Program-made: the position numbers and the translations under genes
Part shown: positions 702-29,177 of the stretch, piece after piece
Layout of the letters: each line of letters starts with the position of its first letter
How positions within the stretch are numbered: the first letter of the stretch is position 1
Notes under the pieces: generated by a model
The model's input: the letters and a program-made list of their open reading frames with translations, nothing else
The model's database searches: none
Told to the model about the DNA's origin: nothing
DNA from: a virus
DNA: 29,656 bases
Virus record (IMG/VR): IMGVR_UViG_3300042452_000646
Span: 1-29,656 of that record
Strand: one strand, 5' to 3'

Positions 702-1433
702 ATGCCATTACCTAAGGTTGTAACTCCTACATTTGAACTAGATCTCATTTCAACTGGTAAGACAATTAAATATCGTCCATTTCTCGTTAAGGAAGAAAAA
801 GTTCTTCTGATTGCACTTGAAAGCGGTAATGAAAAGGATATTTTAAACGCTGTAAAGGATGTTTTAAAATCCTGTGTTCTTACTCGTGGTGTAAAAGTAG
901 AAGATCTTCCTAGTTTTGAACTTGAATATCTTTTCTTGAATATTCGTAGCAAGTCTGTTGGTGAAAGTGTAGAACTTCTAGTTACCTGCACTGACGATGG
1001 AGAAACTCAAGTTCCATTGTCAGTTAAAATTAATGAAGTAAAACTTGTTGTTCCTGATGGACATAATGATCTAATTGAACTTGGCGGAGGATTATTCATG
1101 AAATTGAAATATCCTTCAATGCAACAGTTTGTAGAGAATAACTTCTCACTTTCAAAAGCGGGAACTAATTCAGAAAAAATTGATAAAGCGTTTAAGTCTG
1201 TAATCTCATGCATCGAACAACTTTATAATGAAGACGAAGCATGGTCATATTCAGATTATACTGAAAAAGAATGGATTGAATTTCTTGAGGGATTGGATAG
1301 TTTTCAATTCCAAATGATTGAGAAGTTTTTTGAAACAATGCCAAAGTTATCATATTCTACAAAGATAAAAAATCCCAACACTGGTGTTGATACTGATGTC
1401 CTAATTGAGGGATTAACAAATTTTTTCGCATAA
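702..1433 (+). CDS. gp26: Baseplate hub assembly protein, gp26-like
   Basis: This 243-residue protein fits the T4 gp26 baseplate family (T4 gp26 is about 208 aa). It opens MPLPKVVTPTFELDL, followed by a conserved-looking YRPFLVKEEKVLLIALES segment, which is the most recognisable part. It has an alpha/beta N-terminal half and a helical C-terminal half. gp26 takes part in hub assembly and has been proposed to be the counterpart of the tape-measure chaperone G of lambda. The next ORF overlaps the stop codon by one base (TAATG). The last sense codons are AAT TTT TTC GCA, giving a slippery heptamer for a -1 frameshift into that ORF. Translational coupling through TAATG is the alternative. Confidence 0.75.
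   Translation: MPLPKVVTPTFELDLISTGKTIKYRPFLVKEEKVLLIALESGNEKDILNAVKDVLKSCVLTRGVKVEDLPSFELEYLFLNIRSKSVGESVELLVTCTDDGETQVPLSVKINEVKLVVPDGHNDLIELGGGLFMKLKYPSMQQFVENNFSLSKAGTNSEKIDKAFKSVISCIEQLYNEDEAWSYSDYTEKEWIEFLEGLDSFQFQMIEKFFETMPKLSYSTKIKNPNTGVDTDVLIEGLTNFFA
1421..1427 (+). other. Putative -1 ribosomal frameshift site (T TTT TTC)
   Basis: The codons AAT TTT TTC end two codons before the TAA stop of the gp26-like gene, so T TTT TTC is in the correct X XXY YYZ register. After a -1 slip the next codons are CGC, ATA, ATG, CTA, TAT, which is exactly the frame of the 62-residue ORF beginning at 1433. The product would be about 306 residues: 242 from the gp26-like frame plus 64 from the downstream frame. 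Lambda G/GT and phage Mu make tape-measure chaperones this way. I did not identify a clear downstream stem-loop. Confidence 0.5.
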
Positions 1434-1621
1434 TGCTATATCATACAGATATGACTTCATATTTTGAAGATAACTTTGCGTTGATGCATTATCATAAATG
1501 GAGTTTATTTGAAATTGAAAACTTGATGCCTTGGGAAAAGGAAATTTATATCAAATACCTAGAGAATTATTTGGAGAAGAAAAAGTTAGAGGCAGCACAA
1601 GCAGCAAATGCAATTAGTTGA
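1433..1621 (+). CDS. Small gp51-like hub assembly / frameshift-extension ORF
   Basis: The 62-residue product is rich in aromatic and charged residues (HYHKWSLFEIENLMPWEKEI, then a helical LENYLEKKKLEAAQ tail). The W-S-L-x-x-I-E-x-L/M-x-P-W-E pattern resembles the downstream part of gpGT-type tape-measure chaperones. Its start codon overlaps the preceding stop (TAATG), and the -1 frame of the gp26-like gene runs straight into it. It may therefore be made as a free protein by reinitiation, as the C-terminal extension of a fusion, or both. The following gene overlaps its end by 14 bases. Confidence 0.65.
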   Translation: MLYHTDMTSYFEDNFALMHYHKWSLFEIENLMPWEKEIYIKYLENYLEKKKLEAAQAANAIS

Positions 1622-3218
1622 GCCACAAAATCAAATCCTTCCTGGTATTGTTAGCGTAGAGAAGAAGTCTCCATCTCTTACTCCTTTACGTCGTAGGATG
1701 GGTTTGGCTTATGATAAGTTGCTCATGGAAGCGGAAGAAAGAGAAGGATCTCTTTCTCCAAAAACGATTAGAACTTTAGGTAAATTAGTTCTAGAGTTTG
1801 AACAAGTCAATACTAATCTTGCATCAATTCAAGCACAGATTAGACAAGACATTCGTGATAAGAAAAGATATTTTGATGACGAGAAAAAATTATACAAGAA
1901 GGAAGAAGAAAACTTAACCAGTTTACGTGGATCATTCTTTGATCTGAGATCTAAGTTTGCTGGAATATCTGCAGCTCTTGCTGGTAAAGCATTACTAGAA
2001 GGTAGATTTGGTGATGCTGCTGCCAATGCTGGGTTTGCAGTTACTGCAATGCTCCCAGAGATCGTTAATATCGCTTCTGGACTAGTTCTTTCACGAATGG
2101 CACTTGGTGGTATGGGACGTGCTGCGGCAGGTGCTACCATCGCCCGTGGGGGTGGTGTAAGAATGCCTGGTATGGGCGGACTGGGTATGCTTGGACTTGC
2201 AGCAGCAGTTCCTCTTACAATGGGTGCTGCAGATGTAAGAAGACAAGAATTAGTAAGAAGACAAACTGGATCTGCTGGTATTAGTCCAGACGATGTAGAT
2301 AGATTTCAAGCGACAGTAACTCGTTTTGATGCAATTTTATCGCAAAAAGGTGGTGGAGGAAAAGCACAAGAACAACCAAAGGTTGCTGTAGAAGAGGATC
2401 CTCGTGGTAAAGATGATAAAAAACCACCACCACCATTAAAAGCTCCATCTGGAGATGTGTTTGCTGGTGATATTCTTGCAGACACTCCAGAAGAAAAAGC
2501 ATTGATTGCAACTGTTAGAGAAACAGAAGGAACCGCAGGTAAAGATGGATATAGTACGTTTTTCGGTGGTTCTTTATATGGTGGTGATTTACGGAAAAAA
2601 ACCGTCGCTGAAGTTGCTGAGTTGCAAAAAAAATTCCTTAGAGAAGGTAGAGGTAGATTTTATGATGCTGGAACGAAAACATATAGACAATCTGGTGTTG
2701 TTGGTGCTGGACAATTTAAATATCCAGAACAGATTGCTAGATCTATGGGAATGGATCCAGCAAAAACACTATTTGATGAAGCGTTTCAAAATAGTGCAAT
2801 ACTTTATTCTGCAAGAAAAAAAAGAGGTGTAGATCCAAGCAAACCATTAACGCTTCAGGATATTCAGGCATTAAATCCAGAATGGTCTGGTCTTGGTCCT
2901 TACTATGGACAAACAACAAGAACTATCGAACAATCTTTAAAATTATATCAACAAAATTTAAGAGAAGCACAAAAGGTAGAAACTAAACCAAAACCAACAA
3001 GAAAACCTCCATCAGAAGATCCAAGATCTCAGAGTATGCAGTTTATGAAACCTGCAGGTTCTGATATTTCTTTAATTACAATTCCTGGACAACAAAAGGT
3101 TGCTAAACCACAAGGACCAAAAACTGCTCCAGCTTCATCTGAAGTTGCATTCAATACAACTTTTGAAAGTGTTGATAGATTTACTTCTAATCTTATTCTA
3201 GGGGTGTATAGTTCATGA
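1608..3218 (+). CDS. Tape-measure-like tail protein with lysozyme-like domain
   Basis: This 536-residue protein starts inside the previous gene (14-base overlap). In order it has: a charged coiled coil at about residues 50-110; a Gly/Ala/Met-rich hydrophobic stretch at about 115-210, as seen in tape-measure proteins that enter the membrane; a Lys/Pro linker at about 245-285; and a compact domain at about 297-450. That domain has VRETEGTAG (E305 or E307 as possible acid), GVVGAGQF and LNPEWSGLGPYYG, a layout like phage lysozyme/transglycosylase domains. A Pro/Lys-rich tail follows. Its position just after the G/GT-like pair is where tape-measure genes sit, and muralytic domains do occur in such proteins. 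The lysozyme call rests on motif layout only. Confidence 0.55.
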   Translation: MQLVEPQNQILPGIVSVEKKSPSLTPLRRRMGLAYDKLLMEAEEREGSLSPKTIRTLGKLVLEFEQVNTNLASIQAQIRQDIRDKKRYFDDEKKLYKKEEENLTSLRGSFFDLRSKFAGISAALAGKALLEGRFGDAAANAGFAVTAMLPEIVNIASGLVLSRMALGGMGRAAAGATIARGGGVRMPGMGGLGMLGLAAAVPLTMGAADVRRQELVRRQTGSAGISPDDVDRFQATVTRFDAILSQKGGGGKAQEQPKVAVEEDPRGKDDKKPPPPLKAPSGDVFAGDILADTPEEKALIATVRETEGTAGKDGYSTFFGGSLYGGDLRKKTVAEVAELQKKFLREGRGRFYDAGTKTYRQSGVVGAGQFKYPEQIARSMGMDPAKTLFDEAFQNSAILYSARKKRGVDPSKPLTLQDIQALNPEWSGLGPYYGQTTRTIEQSLKLYQQNLREAQKVETKPKPTRKPPSEDPRSQSMQFMKPAGSDISLITIPGQQKVAKPQGPKTAPASSEVAFNTTFESVDRFTSNLILGVYSS

Positions 3219-4753
3219 ACTTAGAACAGGTATTAGCAGTTGCTGCATCCAATAAAACAAATAGTGTCAATCTTGAAAAACTATTTGCAAAGTCTGTTGC
3301 AACAACAAATGAGGTTGAAACTCAACGATTACGTGCTAAAACCCAACTTCTAGAAGTAAGACAGAAAACTTATTCTGCGATCAGACAGTCTCAAGAAGAA
3401 CAAGAAAAGAAAGGTGGTGTCTTAGATAAAATTCTTGGTACTCTTGGTCTTGCAGGATTAGCAAAAGGATTAAAAGGTGCTAAACCACCAACAGGTGGAG
3501 CAGGTGTTGTATCACCTAAACCCAAACCTGGTGGACCTAGAATTGGTCGTGGAGTTGCTGGATTGAATGTATTGTTTGGTGGTATTGATTTTATGCAACG
3601 TCGATCCGCAGGACAATCTAACTTACAGGCAGGAATTGGTGCTGGTGCTGGTGTTGCTGGCGGTATGGCAGGTGCTGCTTTAGGAGCAAAGATCGGTGCT
3701 GGATTGGGTACAATAGTTGCTCCTGGATTAGGAACACTGATTGGTGGAGGATTAGGAACATTAGTTGGTGGTGGTATTGGTGCAATGGCAGCAGGGAATG
3801 TTGCTGACCGAGCAACTGGTGTTGATGCTGGTGAGCAGGAAGTTGAAAGAAGAGTTCAAGAAGAAGAAAAGAAAACAAGTTTATTGATCACAAAAACACC
3901 ATTCTCAGGTGCTTTAGATGCTTTCGATTCTGCATTAGATAAACTTTCATCTTTCCCTGGTGGCATTTGTGCTTGTGCAGGAAGAGAAGCACCACCAGAA
4001 ATGATGCCTACACAGAGAAGAAAAGATCAAATTCAAAAGGCATATGAAGAGGGTTATAATAAAGGTGTTGGAGAAGGTAGAACACAGGGTGGTGCAGCAG
4101 GTTTTGTTGCAGGTATTGCTGTTGTTGGTGGTGCTCTATTTTTAACTAGAGGCAAAGGTGGTGCGTTATTACAAAGACTTGGATTGGTTTCGGATATCAT
4201 TCCAAAAACTCCAACAAGAACACCCGTAGATCCTGGAAAAGTTCGTGTTCTTCCAAAAGAAGAAGTATTGCCACCAGCACCAGCACCAACAACAAGACCG
4301 ACTACTCAAAGGATCATGGAATCTGTTTTTGGTGAAACTCCTGCTCCTAGGCATTCTCCAAGGATGCCTAGAAATCCTAAAACAGGAAAACCACAAGAAC
4401 TGGTTGAAGAAGTTATTGATACTCCAGAAGGACAAGTTATTATTAGAAGACCTGCAACAAAGGTAGAACAATCAACACCTGAAGAATTTTTCCAAAAACA
4501 AGAATTGAAAGGAATAAAAAAGCAGATAAAACAGTTAAAGAAAATTAGAGGTACATTAGATCCAGAAGAAGTTTCTCCTGTAGGTCCTCAAAGTAGTGTA
4601 GGTGGATCTAATATCATTGCATTAGCAGAACCAAATACCACAATTGTTCCTGTTCCTGTAGGTGGTGGAACACAAATCATAAGTGGTGGTGGAGCAACGC
4701 CATATCAGGCTGCTGCTAAATATGCTCAGATGATGTCACAGATAACTGCGTAA
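3215..4753 (+). CDS. Glycine-zipper-rich structural protein, possible second tape-measure segment
   Basis: The start overlaps the previous stop as ATGA. The 512-residue product has an N-terminal coiled coil (about residues 20-70), then a long run of Gly/Ala zipper repeats (about 115-200, for example GAALGAKIGAGLG and GTLVGGGIGAMAAGN). A second Gly/Ala segment lies at about 285-310. Pro-rich and Lys-rich linkers follow, ending in a Gly/Ala tail. The order of coiled coil, hydrophobic glycine segment and Pro/Lys linker repeats that of the preceding 536-residue protein, so the two may be paralogues or two parts of a tape-measure system. No catalytic motif was seen. Confidence 0.5.
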   Translation: MNLEQVLAVAASNKTNSVNLEKLFAKSVATTNEVETQRLRAKTQLLEVRQKTYSAIRQSQEEQEKKGGVLDKILGTLGLAGLAKGLKGAKPPTGGAGVVSPKPKPGGPRIGRGVAGLNVLFGGIDFMQRRSAGQSNLQAGIGAGAGVAGGMAGAALGAKIGAGLGTIVAPGLGTLIGGGLGTLVGGGIGAMAAGNVADRATGVDAGEQEVERRVQEEEKKTSLLITKTPFSGALDAFDSALDKLSSFPGGICACAGREAPPEMMPTQRRKDQIQKAYEEGYNKGVGEGRTQGGAAGFVAGIAVVGGALFLTRGKGGALLQRLGLVSDIIPKTPTRTPVDPGKVRVLPKEEVLPPAPAPTTRPTTQRIMESVFGETPAPRHSPRMPRNPKTGKPQELVEEVIDTPEGQVIIRRPATKVEQSTPEEFFQKQELKGIKKQIKQLKKIRGTLDPEEVSPVGPQSSVGGSNIIALAEPNTTIVPVPVGGGTQIISGGGATPYQAAAKYAQMMSQITA

Positions 4754-6015
4754 TGTCCAATTTTCTAAAAGGACATAAAGTAACAGAGCTTCTTATTGCT
4801 TCTCCAAAGGGAGATAGGTTTGAGGATGTTCGTTTACAGTCTGGTCTCATCAGTTACTATGAAGATGTTACAGATAGTTCAATTCACTTTGAGATTGATA
4901 TATTAGATACCAGTGGCAAATTAGCAAAACTACCTGTAAGAAGTGGTGCAGTTGTATATCTTACAATTACGCATCCTTCAGGAGAAATAAGATTTGATCA
5001 AAACAATCCATTAGTTATTAGCAATATTAAAACAGGAACAGCAACAGCAAAACGAGAAGTTTATACTTTAATTCTAGAAACACAAGGATCATTCAGCAAT
5101 CATACGACAAGATTGTATCGAAAATACACAGGTAAACTCGATACAATTATAAGAAAAATATTAGAAAAAGATCTTAATATCAGTTCATCAAGAATAAGAA
5201 GGCTTGAAGAAACTTCAAACACTTATAGTTTCATGGGAAATTATAAGAAACCTTTATTTACTTGTACTTGGTTATGTCCTAAATCTATTCCATTAGTTAA
5301 TAATGGAAAGAATTCTGGAACTGCTGGATATTTTTTCTATGAAGCACTTGATGGATATTACTTCAGAAGTATTGACAATATCTTTAACGAAGCAAAGAAA
5401 AATAAAGACAAAATTTTAAAATACGATTATCACGAAACAGTCGATGCATTAAGTCCAAATAATAATTACAAACTTGTTTCGCCTCCAGTTTGGAGAGAAA
5501 GTCATGATATCCTAGAAAAACTCAGACTAGGGATGTACAGATCTTCTAATTGGTTTTATAATATCATCACAAGATCGCCAGACTTTCAAGATTACTACTT
5601 TGGACAAAGTATCAACAAACAACTAACGTTATCAAACGAAGTTGAGAATATTCCTAACAATATTGATGCTTATCCATCAAGAATTATAATGGGAGTAATC
5701 GACACAGGAACGTTATCTGCAAAGGGTGATTTAACTACACCACAATATCAACCATTATTCCAATCACAAGGAATTGCAAGATACGCATCACTGTTTTCTC
5801 AAACTTTATCGATAACAGTGCCAATGAATATGACTTTAAGAGTTGGGGAAGTAATATTCTGCAACTTTTCTAAGATAAATAAGCAAGAATCAGATTTTGG
5901 TTCCGATCCTAGTTCAGGATACTATATGATCAAGTCGTTGGCACATAAATTTTCTTCAAGAGGCGATTTTACTGGATTGACTTTAGTAAGAGATTCCTAC
6001 GCACAACTAACATGA
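4753..6015 (+). CDS. gp27: Baseplate hub protein, gp27-like
   Basis: The 420-residue product (T4 gp27 is 391 aa) fits the gp27 hub family, which forms the trimeric ring between tail tube and gp5 spike complex. The N-terminal region shows alternating strands (GLISYYEDVTDSSIHFEIDI, then an SGAVVYLTITHPSG segment). Next comes the typical hub-family stretch EVYTLILETQGSFSNHTTRL, followed by a helical KLDTIIRKIL. The C-terminus, with MNMTLRVGEVIFCNF, resembles the second barrel. It overlaps the preceding gene by one base (TAATG) and lies just upstream of the gp5-like gene, as expected for direct partners. Confidence 0.75.
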   Translation: MSNFLKGHKVTELLIASPKGDRFEDVRLQSGLISYYEDVTDSSIHFEIDILDTSGKLAKLPVRSGAVVYLTITHPSGEIRFDQNNPLVISNIKTGTATAKREVYTLILETQGSFSNHTTRLYRKYTGKLDTIIRKILEKDLNISSSRIRRLEETSNTYSFMGNYKKPLFTCTWLCPKSIPLVNNGKNSGTAGYFFYEALDGYYFRSIDNIFNEAKKNKDKILKYDYHETVDALSPNNNYKLVSPPVWRESHDILEKLRLGMYRSSNWFYNIITRSPDFQDYYFGQSINKQLTLSNEVENIPNNIDAYPSRIIMGVIDTGTLSAKGDLTTPQYQPLFQSQGIARYASLFSQTLSITVPMNMTLRVGEVIFCNFSKINKQESDFGSDPSSGYYMIKSLAHKFSSRGDFTGLTLVRDSYAQLT

Positions 6016-6224
6016 GAACCATCGAAGACCACATAGAAAAGGATACCACAGATCTTTATGATCCTGGTATTTCTTCACAACGACGCCGTTTTCTAGAACA
6101 AGAACTAGAAGACTTGAAAATATATCAGGCAAATCATCCTGGTGAAGATCACGATCCAACTCCTTTTGAGGTTTATTGTGATCTAAATCCAAATGCACTT
6201 GAGTGTAGAATTTACGAAAACTGA
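6012..6224 (+). CDS. Conserved-looking small baseplate-operon protein
   Basis: This 70-residue acidic protein is inserted between the gp27-like and gp5-like genes. It overlaps the first by four bases (ATGA) and the second by one (TGATG). It has a central helix (RRRFLEQELEDLKIYQANHP), a Cys near residue 57 and another near 65. I do not recognise a family. The tight coupling suggests it is made in step with the hub proteins, perhaps as an assembly factor or minor component. Confidence 0.6.
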   Translation: MRTIEDHIEKDTTDLYDPGISSQRRRFLEQELEDLKIYQANHPGEDHDPTPFEVYCDLNPNALECRIYEN

Positions 6225-24735: not shown

Positions 24736-25593
24736 ATGTACTCACAACCTGAGTGTTTTAACTCAAAGTTGGTGTACTCTTTTAGTGAGCATCATCACAT
24801 CAAAATAAACAAAAGCAAATCAGTTCGTTCATATTATGGTTCTTGCCCATTCTTATGGGACCTTGGTATAAGTGCTACTAAAAAAGAATACAATCCAAAA
24901 GGATCATTGTTCTTCCTTCCAAGAGACGATCAAGTAACAATTCGTAAACCAGAATGGAAATCTGTTCAGGATACAATTGATGCTGCACCCAAACCAATCA
25001 CATTTTTACTACCTTGGAGACAATGTGATATATGGCAACATTGGGATAAATTATCTCTACCAGAAGATTGTAACTTTGTACAAATGTCTGATAGAGAAAC
25101 TAGACAGTTTACTTTATCGGAACTATTTCTTACTCACGAAAACATTTATATTCCTTGGCCAGGCACAGATGTTTATTATGCAGAATTTTTAGAAAAAAAT
25201 ATTATTATCTACGACGATATAAAAAAATATAGAACTAAAACTGTAGAAGAAGGTGGTAAACAAATACAGACAAAGGTTCTTAGATTTTTAAAATGGGGAT
25301 ATGATTACTTAAATGATACTCAAAAAGAATATTTTCACTGGACAGAAAACTGGAATGATATTTCTTTAGAAGATAGAAAATTTCTTACCTCAAAAATGTT
25401 AGGTCTTGATGTACTAAAATCTCCCAAAGAATTATTTGATGATATGAAATCAAATCAATTTTTACAAAATGAACTAGAATTTAAGTATAACGAAGACTAC
25501 CAAAAATCTTATGAATGGTTGAAAACCAAATCAGAAAAATTCGTTAATTCTAGTTGTAGCAATGGATGTGCTACTATATTTGCTAAACTTTAA
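24736..25593 (+). CDS. Glycosyltransferase-like protein, 5' end uncertain
   Basis: From the ATG at 24736 the product is 285 residues. The frame is open upstream to a GTG at 24607, but that would run through the terminator hairpin, so I prefer the ATG or a non-ATG start between 24685 and 24736. Features include VYSFSEHHHIKINKSKSVRS, a YYGSCPFLWDLGI segment, GSLFFLPRDDQ, ITFLLPWRQCDIW and YIPWPGTDVYYAEFLEKNII. The pattern is that of a GT-B-type surface-polysaccharide transferase, where the last phrase would be in the donor-binding half. The N-terminus looks short for that fold. Its stop overlaps the stop of the convergent phosphatase gene, with no terminator between. Confidence 0.5.
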   Translation: MYSQPECFNSKLVYSFSEHHHIKINKSKSVRSYYGSCPFLWDLGISATKKEYNPKGSLFFLPRDDQVTIRKPEWKSVQDTIDAAPKPITFLLPWRQCDIWQHWDKLSLPEDCNFVQMSDRETRQFTLSELFLTHENIYIPWPGTDVYYAEFLEKNIIIYDDIKKYRTKTVEEGGKQIQTKVLRFLKWGYDYLNDTQKEYFHWTENWNDISLEDRKFLTSKMLGLDVLKSPKELFDDMKSNQFLQNELEFKYNEDYQKSYEWLKTKSEKFVNSSCSNGCATIFAKL

Positions 25594-25943
25594 AATTGAC
25601 GAAAAAAGTCTTTATCACTCCACGCCTTATCATCAACATAATATGCAGCACGAGGTTTACCAAAGAATAGATGGTGATATTGAACACCCCATTCTTTTAG
25701 TTGGTTTTCAGTAAATTCTCGCATCGCTTTATCTGCTTCTGCTTGATTGTTGTCATTACCAAGCATACCACGAGCAGTCATCAAATAAATTTTAGCACCT
25801 TTATCGTAGAGACGATTAACAACACTAATTCGTGAAAGAATTGGTTGAGCGTTCTCAAGATTACAATTTTCTTCTGTACACAAAGTACCATCAATATCAA
25901 AGCAGTAAATTTCTGCCTTGTCATCAATATCAGGAACAATCAT
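25590..25943 (-). CDS. HAD-family sugar-phosphate phosphatase
   Basis: This 117-residue small HAD protein has motif I FDIDGT (D16, D18), motif II LMTARG (T56), the conserved lysine in FGKPRA (K96) and motif III VDDKAW (D104, D105). All catalytic positions are present. The size and lack of a large cap resemble capsule-type and KdsC-type phosphatases. Its start overlaps the stop of the SIS gene (ATGA), so the three minus-strand genes form one operon. With KdsB- and isomerase-like partners it could dephosphorylate a sugar intermediate such as an ulosonate phosphate; the exact substrate is unknown. Confidence 0.75.
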   Translation of the reverse strand: MIVPDIDDKAEIYCFDIDGTLCTEENCNLENAQPILSRISVVNRLYDKGAKIYLMTARGMLGNDNNQAEADKAMREFTENQLKEWGVQYHHLFFGKPRAAYYVDDKAWSDKDFFRQF

Positions 25944-26395
25944 GGTAATTTAGGAAGAACAATACCATTATACTCCATCAGAGCATATAATGTCCAGATG
26001 GCGTTGACTTCAAATTCGTGATACTTTTCAACATCAATCACAATAGTCTCAATCACTCTGTGTTTTTGTGGGGCGATCAATAACGTAGGCATAGCATACT
26101 CTACATTTTCTAGAGCAGTTACCAAAGGTGATTGTATCCTGCAACTAATGCCGATGATAAGATCTGCTCCTTGACAAGCATAGTCAATCCATTTCTCATG
26201 CCATCCACCATCAACATCAAATGCTGTGATTGATACACTATCAGGAGCAAAGCAAAATTTACCTGTATGGCGATAAATGTCAGATGCCATATGCTGAGCA
26301 ACTGAAAGATTACCACCATTACCAATCAAAGCAATTTTAGATGCTCTGCTGAACATCTTTGCTGCTTGTTCAAGACTGCTGTTTTGAAAGTTCAT
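25940..26395 (-). CDS. SIS-domain sugar-phosphate isomerase (GmhA/KdsD-like)
   Basis: I chose the ATG at 26395 over a TTG at 26401; the product is 151 residues. Residues 21-29 are IALIGNGGN, followed by SVAQHMASDIYRH, the phosphosugar-binding loop and helix of the GmhA-type SIS family. The usual GNGGS is GNGGN here. The middle (DLIIGISCRIQSPLVTALE) resembles the second SIS motif. GmhA is about 190 residues, so this copy is short and lacks any CBS domain as found in KdsD. It overlaps the kdsB-like gene by 26 bases and the HAD gene by four. Confidence 0.72.
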   Translation of the reverse strand: MNFQNSSLEQAAKMFSRASKIALIGNGGNLSVAQHMASDIYRHTGKFCFAPDSVSITAFDVDGGWHEKWIDYACQGADLIIGISCRIQSPLVTALENVEYAMPTLLIAPQKHRVIETIVIDVEKYHEFEVNAIWTLYALMEYNGIVLPKLP

Positions 26396-27086
26396 GTTCA
26401 ATTTCTTGAATGTGATGTTGTCTATCTACTGCTCTTATTTTACCACATTTTAGATCATATGGCACTACTTCATATTTGCCACAAAAACCAATCGTATCCA
26501 ATCCTTTCCAATACTCAACAAATCCCATATCAAGGTTAGGAAAGTCACAGATTACGTTTTGTCTATAGAAATATAATCCTAACTGCACAGTAATATTTTT
26601 ACACACCACATCAGGTGTTCGTTGCATATGAACAACTCTGCCATTGTTTTCAATCATCTTAACAACATCTTCGTCATCAAGTTCATCAGGTTCTAGTTGT
26701 CTTGATGCTTGAACCATATCGTAATCGTTATCAACACCAAACTCAATGATGCGATCAATCCATGCAGGATCTGTTAACGGTTCGTCTCCTTGCAAATTAA
26801 AAATATAATCACTTTCCAAAGTTTGAGATACTTCTGCCACGCGATGAGTGCAGGTATAGTGTTCACTTGTGAGTTGGGATTGGTATCCATTGATTTCACA
26901 TAATCGTTTGATGATTTCGTCTTCTGTAGCAATGATGATCTGATCGAAATACTTAGATTGTTTTGCAATATCTGCCACACGTATCACCATCTCACGTCCA
27001 AGTATCCTAGCAAGTGGTTTACCAGGAAACCGACTAGATTTCATTCGTGCTGGGATAACACAAGCAATTTTTTTTCTATTATACAT
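26370..27086 (-). CDS. kdsB: KdsB-like CMP-sugar synthetase (3-deoxy-manno-octulosonate cytidylyltransferase family)
   Basis: The 238-residue product (KdsB is about 250) joins a 3-deoxy-ulosonic acid to CMP. The nucleotide-binding loop is VIPARMKSSRFPGKPL at residues 10-25, with IIATED at 51-56, NLQGDEPLTDP at 97-107 and the C-terminal phrase KGLDTIGF. The usual H-x-SGT-[DE]-R motif is altered to HYTCTHR at 76-82, so the sugar may differ from Kdo. It is the first gene of the minus-strand operon. Only 25 bases separate it from the divergent radical SAM gene, and no clear promoter lies between. No Kdo-8-P synthase gene is in the window; the host or another part of the genome would need to supply it. 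Confidence 0.75.
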   Translation of the reverse strand: MYNRKKIACVIPARMKSSRFPGKPLARILGREMVIRVADIAKQSKYFDQIIIATEDEIIKRLCEINGYQSQLTSEHYTCTHRVAEVSQTLESDYIFNLQGDEPLTDPAWIDRIIEFGVDNDYDMVQASRQLEPDELDDEDVVKMIENNGRVVHMQRTPDVVCKNITVQLGLYFYRQNVICDFPNLDMGFVEYWKGLDTIGFCGKYEVVPYDLKCGKIRAVDRQHHIQEIEHELSKQQS

Positions 27087-27111
27087 AATAAATTAGTGAT
27101 CTTCGATATAT

Positions 27112-28143
27112 ATGCCAAATAATAATCTATGGGATATTAAACTTGAAATTGGTAACTATTGCAATTTAAAGTGTCCACATTGTGCAAGAAATTTTGTGGG
27201 TGATTATAATTTAAATAGTAAGCACGTTTCATTAAACACAATTAAAAAATGGTTACCAAAATCATTTATTTTATTAAATACAAATAAATTAATAAGATTT
27301 ACTGGAGTTACTGTAGAACCCTCGTTAAATCCAGACTTTTTAAATATTATTAATTATTTTTTAACACATAAATGTTTAATTGAAGTAGAAACTAATGGTT
27401 CTACAAACAATGAAAACTGGTGGTATGAATTGGGGAAAACTGGCGTAAAATGCTATTTTTCTCCAGATTCATTAAAACCAAATAACAATTTATATCGAAT
27501 TAATTCTAACACAGAAAAGGTGATTACAAATATGAAATCATTTATTTCTGGTGGAGGAACTGCTATATGGAAATATTTGCCCTTTAAACATAATGAAGAT
27601 GAATATGATGTACAAAAAACTTTAGCAAAAAAAATTGGTGCAAAATTTGCTGTTGTTCAACCTGGATGGTTTGATGAAAATCGTGTAGGAGAAGTTATGA
27701 AACCATCTAAACATTTTCCAAATCCCAAAACATTAACTACTTCTAAAACTAATAGTAAAAATCCAGAAAATTATTGTATGGTTGTTGGTAAAGGTGGTAA
27801 GTTACTTGAAATTAGTCCAGATGGAATAATCTATCCCTGTTGTTTTGTTGCAAAACCATTGTTTTCCATCTATGCCCCATTTTTAAATGGTGGAGATCAA
27901 AATCCACATATAGATAATGAAAGAGTAAAAACTGATAATTTATATAAAGTTTTTGTAGAAGACATGCTTCCATTAATTGAAAATCAAGGGGGGATAAAAA
28001 CATTATCATTATATCACAATAATATTAAAGATATATTAAAAACTGATATTTTTGTTTCTTCGTTAAAAAAATCTTGGGAAAAACCAAACAGATTTTGTAC
28101 TGAATTGTGTCGTGCTAGAAAATATATAATAACAGAGACATAA
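27112..28143 (+). CDS. Radical SAM/SPASM-like protein, copy 1
   Basis: The 343-residue product has the radical SAM motif C17-x3-C21-x2-C24 within GNYCNLKCPHCARNF. A partial TIM-barrel pattern follows (IEVETNGSTNNENWWYELGK and CYFSPDSLKPNN). C-terminal cysteines in IIYPCCFVAKP and FCTELCRARK suggest a SPASM-type auxiliary cluster. Such enzymes modify peptides or sugars using an S-adenosylmethionine-derived radical. It starts 25 bases from the divergent kdsB-like gene, lacks a clear ribosome binding site and is followed after five bases by a homologue. The DNA looks more AT-rich than the structural genes. Substrate unknown. Confidence 0.75.
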   Translation: MPNNNLWDIKLEIGNYCNLKCPHCARNFVGDYNLNSKHVSLNTIKKWLPKSFILLNTNKLIRFTGVTVEPSLNPDFLNIINYFLTHKCLIEVETNGSTNNENWWYELGKTGVKCYFSPDSLKPNNNLYRINSNTEKVITNMKSFISGGGTAIWKYLPFKHNEDEYDVQKTLAKKIGAKFAVVQPGWFDENRVGEVMKPSKHFPNPKTLTTSKTNSKNPENYCMVVGKGGKLLEISPDGIIYPCCFVAKPLFSIYAPFLNGGDQNPHIDNERVKTDNLYKVFVEDMLPLIENQGGIKTLSLYHNNIKDILKTDIFVSSLKKSWEKPNRFCTELCRARKYIITET

Positions 28144-28148
28144 TAAAC

Positions 28149-29177
28149 ATGGAAAATCCTAAATGGTTCTTAAAACTTGATATAAGTAATCATTGCAATT
28201 TAAGATGTCCTCATTGTGCAAGAAATTTTATAAAAAATGATTATAAATTAAATTCTAGATATGTTTCATTAGAAAAGATTAAACGTTGGATACCAAAATC
28301 ATTTGTTATTCTTAATACAAGTAAAACTGTATTGTTTAGTGGAGCATTAGCCGAACCTACTTTAAATTCAGAACTTATAGAAATTGTAGAATATTTTTTA
28401 AAATTTAAATGTAAAATTTCTATTGATAGTAATGGATCTACAAATAATGAAGATTGGTGGTATAAGTTAGGAAAAACAAAGGTAAAATGTTATTTTTCAC
28501 CAGATTCTTTAGTGCCAAATAATAACCAATATCGTATTAATTCAAATACAGAAAAAGTAATTTCTAATATGAAAGCATTTATTTCTGGTGGAGGAATAGC
28601 TTCATGGAAATATTTGCCCTTTAAACATAATGAAGATGAATATGATGCACAAAAAACTTTAGCAAAAAAAATTGGTGCCGAATTTGGTGTTGTTCAACCT
28701 TCGTGGTTTGATGCTAATGCTGAAGGAGAAACAATGGTTCCATCAAAATATTTTCCAAATTCAAAAAAGATAGTGAACAGCAATCTAACAAATAATCCAG
28801 AAGATTATTGTGTGCTTATTGGTAAGGCTGGAAGTATTATTGAAGTAACTCCAGACGGTGTTATATATCCCTGTTGTTTTGCTGCAAAACCATTTTTTTC
28901 AGTGTATGCACCATTTTTCAATAATGAAGAAACTAAACCTTTAATTAGAGAAGATTTAATGAAATCTAGCACAAAATATAAGTATTTTGTTGAAGATATA
29001 CTTCCTTTGATTGAAACCCAGGGTGGAATAAAAACATTATCATTAAATTTTTACACAATCACAGATATATTAAATACAGACTTATTTAAAAGAAGTTTAA
29101 AATCATCTTGGGAAAGTGGAAATAATTTTTGCACCAAAGAATGCAGATCTAGAGATCATATTTTATATAAAATTTAA
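28149..29177 (+). CDS. Radical SAM/SPASM-like protein, copy 2
   Basis: The 342-residue product is a tandem paralogue of the preceding gene, with motif C16-x3-C20-x2-C23 (SNHCNLRCPHCARNF). Matching C-terminal cysteines occur in VIYPCCFAAKP and FCTKECRSRD. The two proteins align along their full length with no large gap. The best conserved block is ISGGG, followed by WKYLPFKHNEDEYD and QKTLAKKIGA. That both copies keep all cluster cysteines suggests both are active. They may act as a pair or on different substrates. It ends the accessory island. Confidence 0.75.
   Translation: MENPKWFLKLDISNHCNLRCPHCARNFIKNDYKLNSRYVSLEKIKRWIPKSFVILNTSKTVLFSGALAEPTLNSELIEIVEYFLKFKCKISIDSNGSTNNEDWWYKLGKTKVKCYFSPDSLVPNNNQYRINSNTEKVISNMKAFISGGGIASWKYLPFKHNEDEYDAQKTLAKKIGAEFGVVQPSWFDANAEGETMVPSKYFPNSKKIVNSNLTNNPEDYCVLIGKAGSIIEVTPDGVIYPCCFAAKPFFSVYAPFFNNEETKPLIREDLMKSSTKYKYFVEDILPLIETQGGIKTLSLNFYTITDILNTDLFKRSLKSSWESGNNFCTKECRSRDHILYKI

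Follow-up and report, generated by a model that had tools for sequence, protein, structure and literature searches.

A conserved predicted −1 frameshift signal at the end of the gp26-like gene in T4-like phages

Comparative analysis of a DNA sequence of 29,656 nucleotides from a marine T4-like phage (IMG/VR record IMGVR_UViG_3300042452_000646; the whole stretch is termed the window) and of related loci revealed a conserved signal for a predicted −1 frameshift at the end of the gp26-like gene. The sequence comparison makes it very probable that this single gene encodes both a short and a long form of a tail assembly chaperone through a −1 frameshift of the phage lambda G/GT type. We infer the slipping itself and its rate, as well as the tail chaperone role of the gp26-like and gp51-like products, the latter from sequence homology, the order of the genes, and comparison with lambda. 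According to the proposed mechanism, most ribosomes would terminate at the stop of the gp26-like gene and release the 243-residue short chaperone, while a minority at T TTT TTC would move back one base with two tRNA-Phe re-pairing from TTT TTC to TTT TTT, bypass the stop, and translate a further 64 codons to give a 306-residue (approximately 35 kDa) protein with a gp51-like domain. Slipping would be aided by base pairing between 16S rRNA and the GAGGG located 9 nt upstream, as well as by an RNA structure directly downstream. In line with lambda gpG/gpGT, the two forms would coat the tape measure protein and the extension would recruit the tail tube protein.

Table 1. Features at the gp26-like/gp51-like junction of the window.
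Feature	Position	Strand	Remarks
gp26-like gene, 0-frame product	702..1433	+	243 aa, predicted short tail assembly chaperone (TAC-N); PF12322 E 2.1e-65, phrog_150 baseplate hub E 6.4e-73
GAGGG, Shine-Dalgarno-like putative stimulator	1407..1411	+	9 nt before heptamer; GAG codon bias, anti-SD energy peak
Slippery heptamer T TTT TTC, predicted −1 shift site	1421..1427	+	in-frame TTTTTT[C/T/G] in 200/200 loci
−1 frame extension, gp51-like, putative TAC C-terminal domain	1427..1621	+	64 codons, CGC to stop TGA; phrog_634 baseplate hub assembly catalyst E 1.1e-21
0-frame stop TAA, end of short form	1431..1433	+	shares base with ATG at 1433
Free gp51-like ORF from ATG 1433	1433..1621	+	62 aa
Predicted RNA hairpin 3' of shift site	1437..1453	+	smaller flanking hairpins 1428-1436, 1455-1469
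Next gene, tape measure position	1608..3218	+	536 aa; named from position only; weak phrog_90 match

The slippery heptamer and its conservation

The gp26-like ORF of the window ends with AAT TTT TTC GCA TAA, in which the T at 1421, TTT (1422-1424), and TTC (1425-1427) form an X XXY YYZ heptamer in the 0-frame register, separated from the stop (1431-1433) by the single codon GCA (1428-1430). A −1 slip would re-pair on TTT (1421-1423) and TTT (1424-1426) and proceed via CGC ATA ATG (1433 onward) into the 62-residue gp51-like ORF, generating a predicted 306-residue fusion with the junction F F R I M. The codon positions thus confirmed both the register of the heptamer and the route of the slip given in the preliminary description. 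The window is AT-rich and TTTTTTC is ordinary in it, with 15 occurrences on both strands compared to 15.4 expected from shuffles, which is the chance level; the heptamer alone was therefore too thin as evidence of frameshifting and the comparison across loci was decisive. A second 0-frame T TTT TTC at positions 5331-5337, inside the gp27-like hub gene (4753-6015), is probably due to chance.

A viral-contig search with gp26 retrieved a first set of 80 loci, all of which (80/80) contained the in-register T TTT TTC, with gp51 in the −1 frame wherever gp51 could be matched. The wider set, compiled from searches with Aeromonas, Pelagibacter, Pseudomonas, and Ackermannviridae phages plus named phages, comprised 223 loci with a readable stop, including 200 with the heptamer as TTTTTTC (166), TTTTTTT (33), or TTTTTTG (1). 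The in-frame heptamer and the −1 register were present in 200/200 gp26 loci outside the Ackermannviridae and Tevenvirinae-type phages, a count that includes near-copies and the window itself as one row; clustering by protein identity left 119 clusters at the 80% level and 68 at the 70% level. Carriers of the heptamer included the Kyanoviridae, Pelagibacter phage Mosig, Aeromonas phages phiAS5 and Aeh1, Vibrio phage Va3, Stenotrophomonas phage Yut2, Pseudomonas phage Milchi, and Rhizobium phages. The base preceding the two Phe codons was T in all 200 loci and was supplied by varying codons (AGT, GAT, TCT, AAT, GCT, and GGT); given the amino acids and the codon use of the genes themselves, this constant third-base T has a log10 P of about −12.5 over 68 clusters that are not fully independent. 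Phe-Phe pairs elsewhere in the same genes served as a control and were encoded by TTT TTC in 11 of 111 cases, with the complete heptamer in five. The heptamer site is thus kept beyond the protein requirement, and the comparison proposed in the preliminary description, namely whether heptamer and −1 register are retained more than the amino acids demand, returned a strongly positive answer that establishes a conserved candidate frameshift signal at the end of the gp26-like gene. The 0-frame stop was 0, 1, 2, or 8 codons past the heptamer in every one of these loci. The 0 frame continued eight codons beyond the heptamer, overlapping the −1 frame, in 16 pelagiphage-type loci (L083, L102-L106, and others), such that the tail of the short form was longer there than elsewhere.

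Stimulatory elements and expression of the gp51-like extension

Two stimulators appear to accompany the shift site with lineage-dependent strength, a Shine-Dalgarno-like GAGGG upstream and an RNA structure downstream. The Glu codon located five codons upstream was GAG in 106/126 cases compared to 29% elsewhere, and the excess was also seen at the cluster level (25/31, p = 2e-8). Anti-SD pairing displayed a single sharp peak in cyanophage-type loci (−7.65 compared to −4.80 kcal/mol in synonymous controls) and was weak in pelagiphage-type loci (−4.45 compared to −3.59 kcal/mol). The spacing of GAGGG, 9 nt, agrees with the published range of 9-14 nt for −1 sites of bacteria (PMC5009743). The 42 nt past the shift site folded more stably than synonymous controls, with a mean z of −1.80 across clusters and −2.29 for the cyanophage type, and the excess dropped to z of about −0.4 further downstream; the fold in the window (1428-1472) had an energy of −8.1 kcal/mol (z −1.69). 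The downstream stems varied between lineages, and one RNA fold common to all loci was rejected as RNAalifold returned no single consensus for 153 gapless loci, leaving stems common to subsets. In one such subset, 12 cyanophage loci retained a 10-bp helix that was 85% paired with a covariation of 0.155 compared to 0.000-0.056 when slid, a result biased by the hand-picking of these loci.

The −1 frame remained open for 56-69 residues in 195/195 closed loci, compared to medians of 6 codons in the +1 frame and 9 in the 0 frame, and all 195 are accordingly predicted, at the level of sequence, to encode a short form plus a −1 extended form with an extension of that length. The main alternative is that gp51 is made solely as a free protein through translational coupling or reinitiation at TAATG, with the heptamer incidental, as would fit the TAATG with its ATG in the correct frame in the window, an ATG before the conserved gp51 His in 86/197 loci, and the TAATG overlap lacking the heptamer in some Ackermannviridae. 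This is very improbable, as no ATG, GTG, or TTG separated the shift site from the conserved His in 101/197 loci and none preceded the conserved Asn, ten residues past the His, in 66/197, such that the start is dispensable and the heptamer is not. The fusion is therefore the only ordinary route to gp51 in those 101 loci, and TAATG reinitiation cannot be the general mechanism because half of the loci lack a start codon there. Reinitiation would also have no need of the third-base T in the codon before the Phe pair, and the SD-like site lies approximately 21 nt from the ATG, which is too far for ordinary initiation and right for a −1 shift. The reinitiation considered in the preliminary description hence fails as a general explanation, although it may add free gp51 alongside the fusion in the phage represented by the window. 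Less probable still is RNA polymerase slippage, in which a U added to the mRNA would give the same fusion from a run of mostly T6, with T7 in 33/200 loci, since T6 is short for slippage by bacterial polymerases and the tandem-slip phase, the SD-like spacing, and the structure peak right after the site are features of ribosomal sites.

The −1 frameshift also accounts for inconsistencies in annotation. Lacking its own start codon, gp51 was unannotated or truncated in several records, being left out in S-CAM1 and Aeh1 and given a late start in phiAS5, Milchi, Mosig, and S-RSM4, and slippage annotation was absent from all phage records examined. Cyanophage gp51 has been described as approximately 20% of the usual length with the first approximately 200 residues missing, and gp51 as "missing only in Aeh1" (Sullivan et al., 2010; PMC3037559). 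A −1 frameshift would explain both the "shortened" cyanophage gp51 and the "missing" gp51 of Aeh1, and the Aeh1-type locus L100 carried the heptamer and the −1 extension without a start codon.

Gene family, T4 relationship, and lineages lacking the heptamer

The window pair belongs to the T4 gp26/gp51 family based on the presence of the PF12322 domain, a T4 baseplate protein family of gp26/gp51 type, plus the phrog_634 tail. Tequatrovirus gp26 contained PF12322 only, and Tequatrovirus gp51 combined PF12322 (residues 1-201) with a phrog_634 tail (147-246). The alignment of T4-type gp51 with the predicted fusions ran across the junction (DVFKLLVNPDEI against DFFRLTLVNDSI), and the match of T4-type gp51 with the Aeh1-type fusion had a BLAST E of 5e-8. 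The predicted fusion is thus matched colinearly by T4-type gp51 and the short form by T4 gp26, so the link to T4 gp26/gp51 proposed in the preliminary description holds and is stronger than claimed. T4 gp51 is encoded in one frame, and 1,334 phage records matched at least 80% of its length in one place. In an unrooted tree with long branches, T4-type gp26 and gp51 grouped in one clade (99/95), identifying them as paralogues of each other, and the Ackermannviridae were placed among the frameshifting groups. Klebsiella phage phi1_146002 (L233, 2501-3794) encoded a full-length gp51 directly followed by gp26 in tandem, which is possibly a remnant of the duplication behind T4 genes 51 and 26. The moderately favored history for the T4 superfamily is that the frameshift is older, spanning the cyanophage and pelagiphage groups as well as Aeh1 and KVP40-like phages and taking the form of a dnaX-like cassette of three parts in cyanophages, and that a T-even duplication and in-frame fusion gave rise to genes 26 and 51, with a separate heptamer loss in the Ackermannviridae; as the tree is unrooted, it is no proof of this order.

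The 23/223 loci without the heptamer consisted of 22 Ackermannviridae-type loci and one Tequatrovirus. The Ackermannviridae kept both genes and the −1 register in the absence of the heptamer. Relatives that keep both genes and lose the heptamer had been named in the preliminary description as counter-evidence and do occur in this family. In the Kuttervirus loci (L208-L217 and L091), gp51 was in the −1 frame without a T6 heptamer and without an ATG, GTG, or TTG start at a junction reading ATT TTC ATT TAA (TTTTTGAAATTG), while TAATG was present in their relatives L222-L224. Kuttervirus gp51 would be expressed either from an ATT start or by a weak single-tRNA slip on T TTC.

Regarding function, T4 gp51 is needed for tail assembly and is absent from the virion (PMC3004832). 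A gp26 structure model based on an alignment of the window and IMG/VR loci only (pLDDT 85) retrieved both chains of the HK97 tail assembly chaperone 2OB9 at ranks 1 and 3 of a PDB fold search, with a non-significant E of about 1 and a probability of 0.30. A PDB sequence search with the gp26 profile gave nothing meaningful and NCBIfam had no match for gp26, gp51, or the next gene. A long ORF overlapped or abutted the end of gp51 in most loci. Homology of the next gene in the window with T4 gp29 was not detected by HMM or hhalign, a weaker point of the tape-measure-like character attributed to this gene in the preliminary description.

Other genes were also identified in the window. A 70-residue protein with a CP12 domain (6012-6224; PF02672 E 7.8e-13, phrog_627) was encoded between two baseplate hub genes and could be a photosynthesis-related host gene or a baseplate part resembling CP12. 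At positions 25590-29177, two small ORFs that had no Pfam match and by eye resembled a sugar-phosphate isomerase and a phosphatase lay next to a cytidylyltransferase gene (PF02348, E 6.4e-28) and a tandem pair of related radical-SAM genes (PF04055), and this group is possibly involved in surface-sugar modification.

Comparison with known systems

Vladimirov, Gautam and Davidson (2022), as cited in two later papers (PMC10885494; PMC12846349), identified the T4-like tail assembly chaperones gp26/gp51. The PRFect authors cite that work for the short-plus-fused arrangement in "some T4-like phages" (PMC10885494), and the paper on phage Adele refers to it for polyT signals in the TAC-N genes of T4-like phages (PMC12846349). 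Judging from these citations, priority for the frameshift in the T4-like clade probably belongs to Vladimirov et al. (2022), and the stimulators, the loss of start codons, and the breadth of the survey may go beyond earlier work. Phage Adele (Pakpunavirus/Vandenendeviridae) likewise has a TAC-N gene ending in an invariant polyT motif and an unbroken −1 frame, but the motif is GTTTTT and the phage is from another family, Vandenendeviridae, with the comparison being by motif and frame (PMC12846349).

A heptamer flanked by a Shine-Dalgarno-like element on the 5' side and a stem-loop on the 3' side is also known from Escherichia coli dnaX, which differs in its A AAA AAG site and unrelated gene, whereas the stem described here varies by lineage. 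A 2016 review excepted T4 from the short/long chaperone rule of long-tailed phages (PMC5009743), and the predicted frameshift would bring a very abundant marine myovirus group under that rule. The T4 gp26/gp51 chaperones are of the same protein families, with T4 gp26 corresponding to the short form and T4 gp51 to the full-length form; T4 makes the long form in one frame from a separate paralogue, whereas here one gene with a −1 shift is predicted to give both. Lambda G/GT likewise produces a short and a long tail chaperone from one gene by −1 frameshifting. The present system differs in that the slippery site is U UUU UUC, the proteins belong to the T4 gp26/gp51 family, cyanophage types carry an SD-like element upstream, and the second ORF often lacks a start codon.
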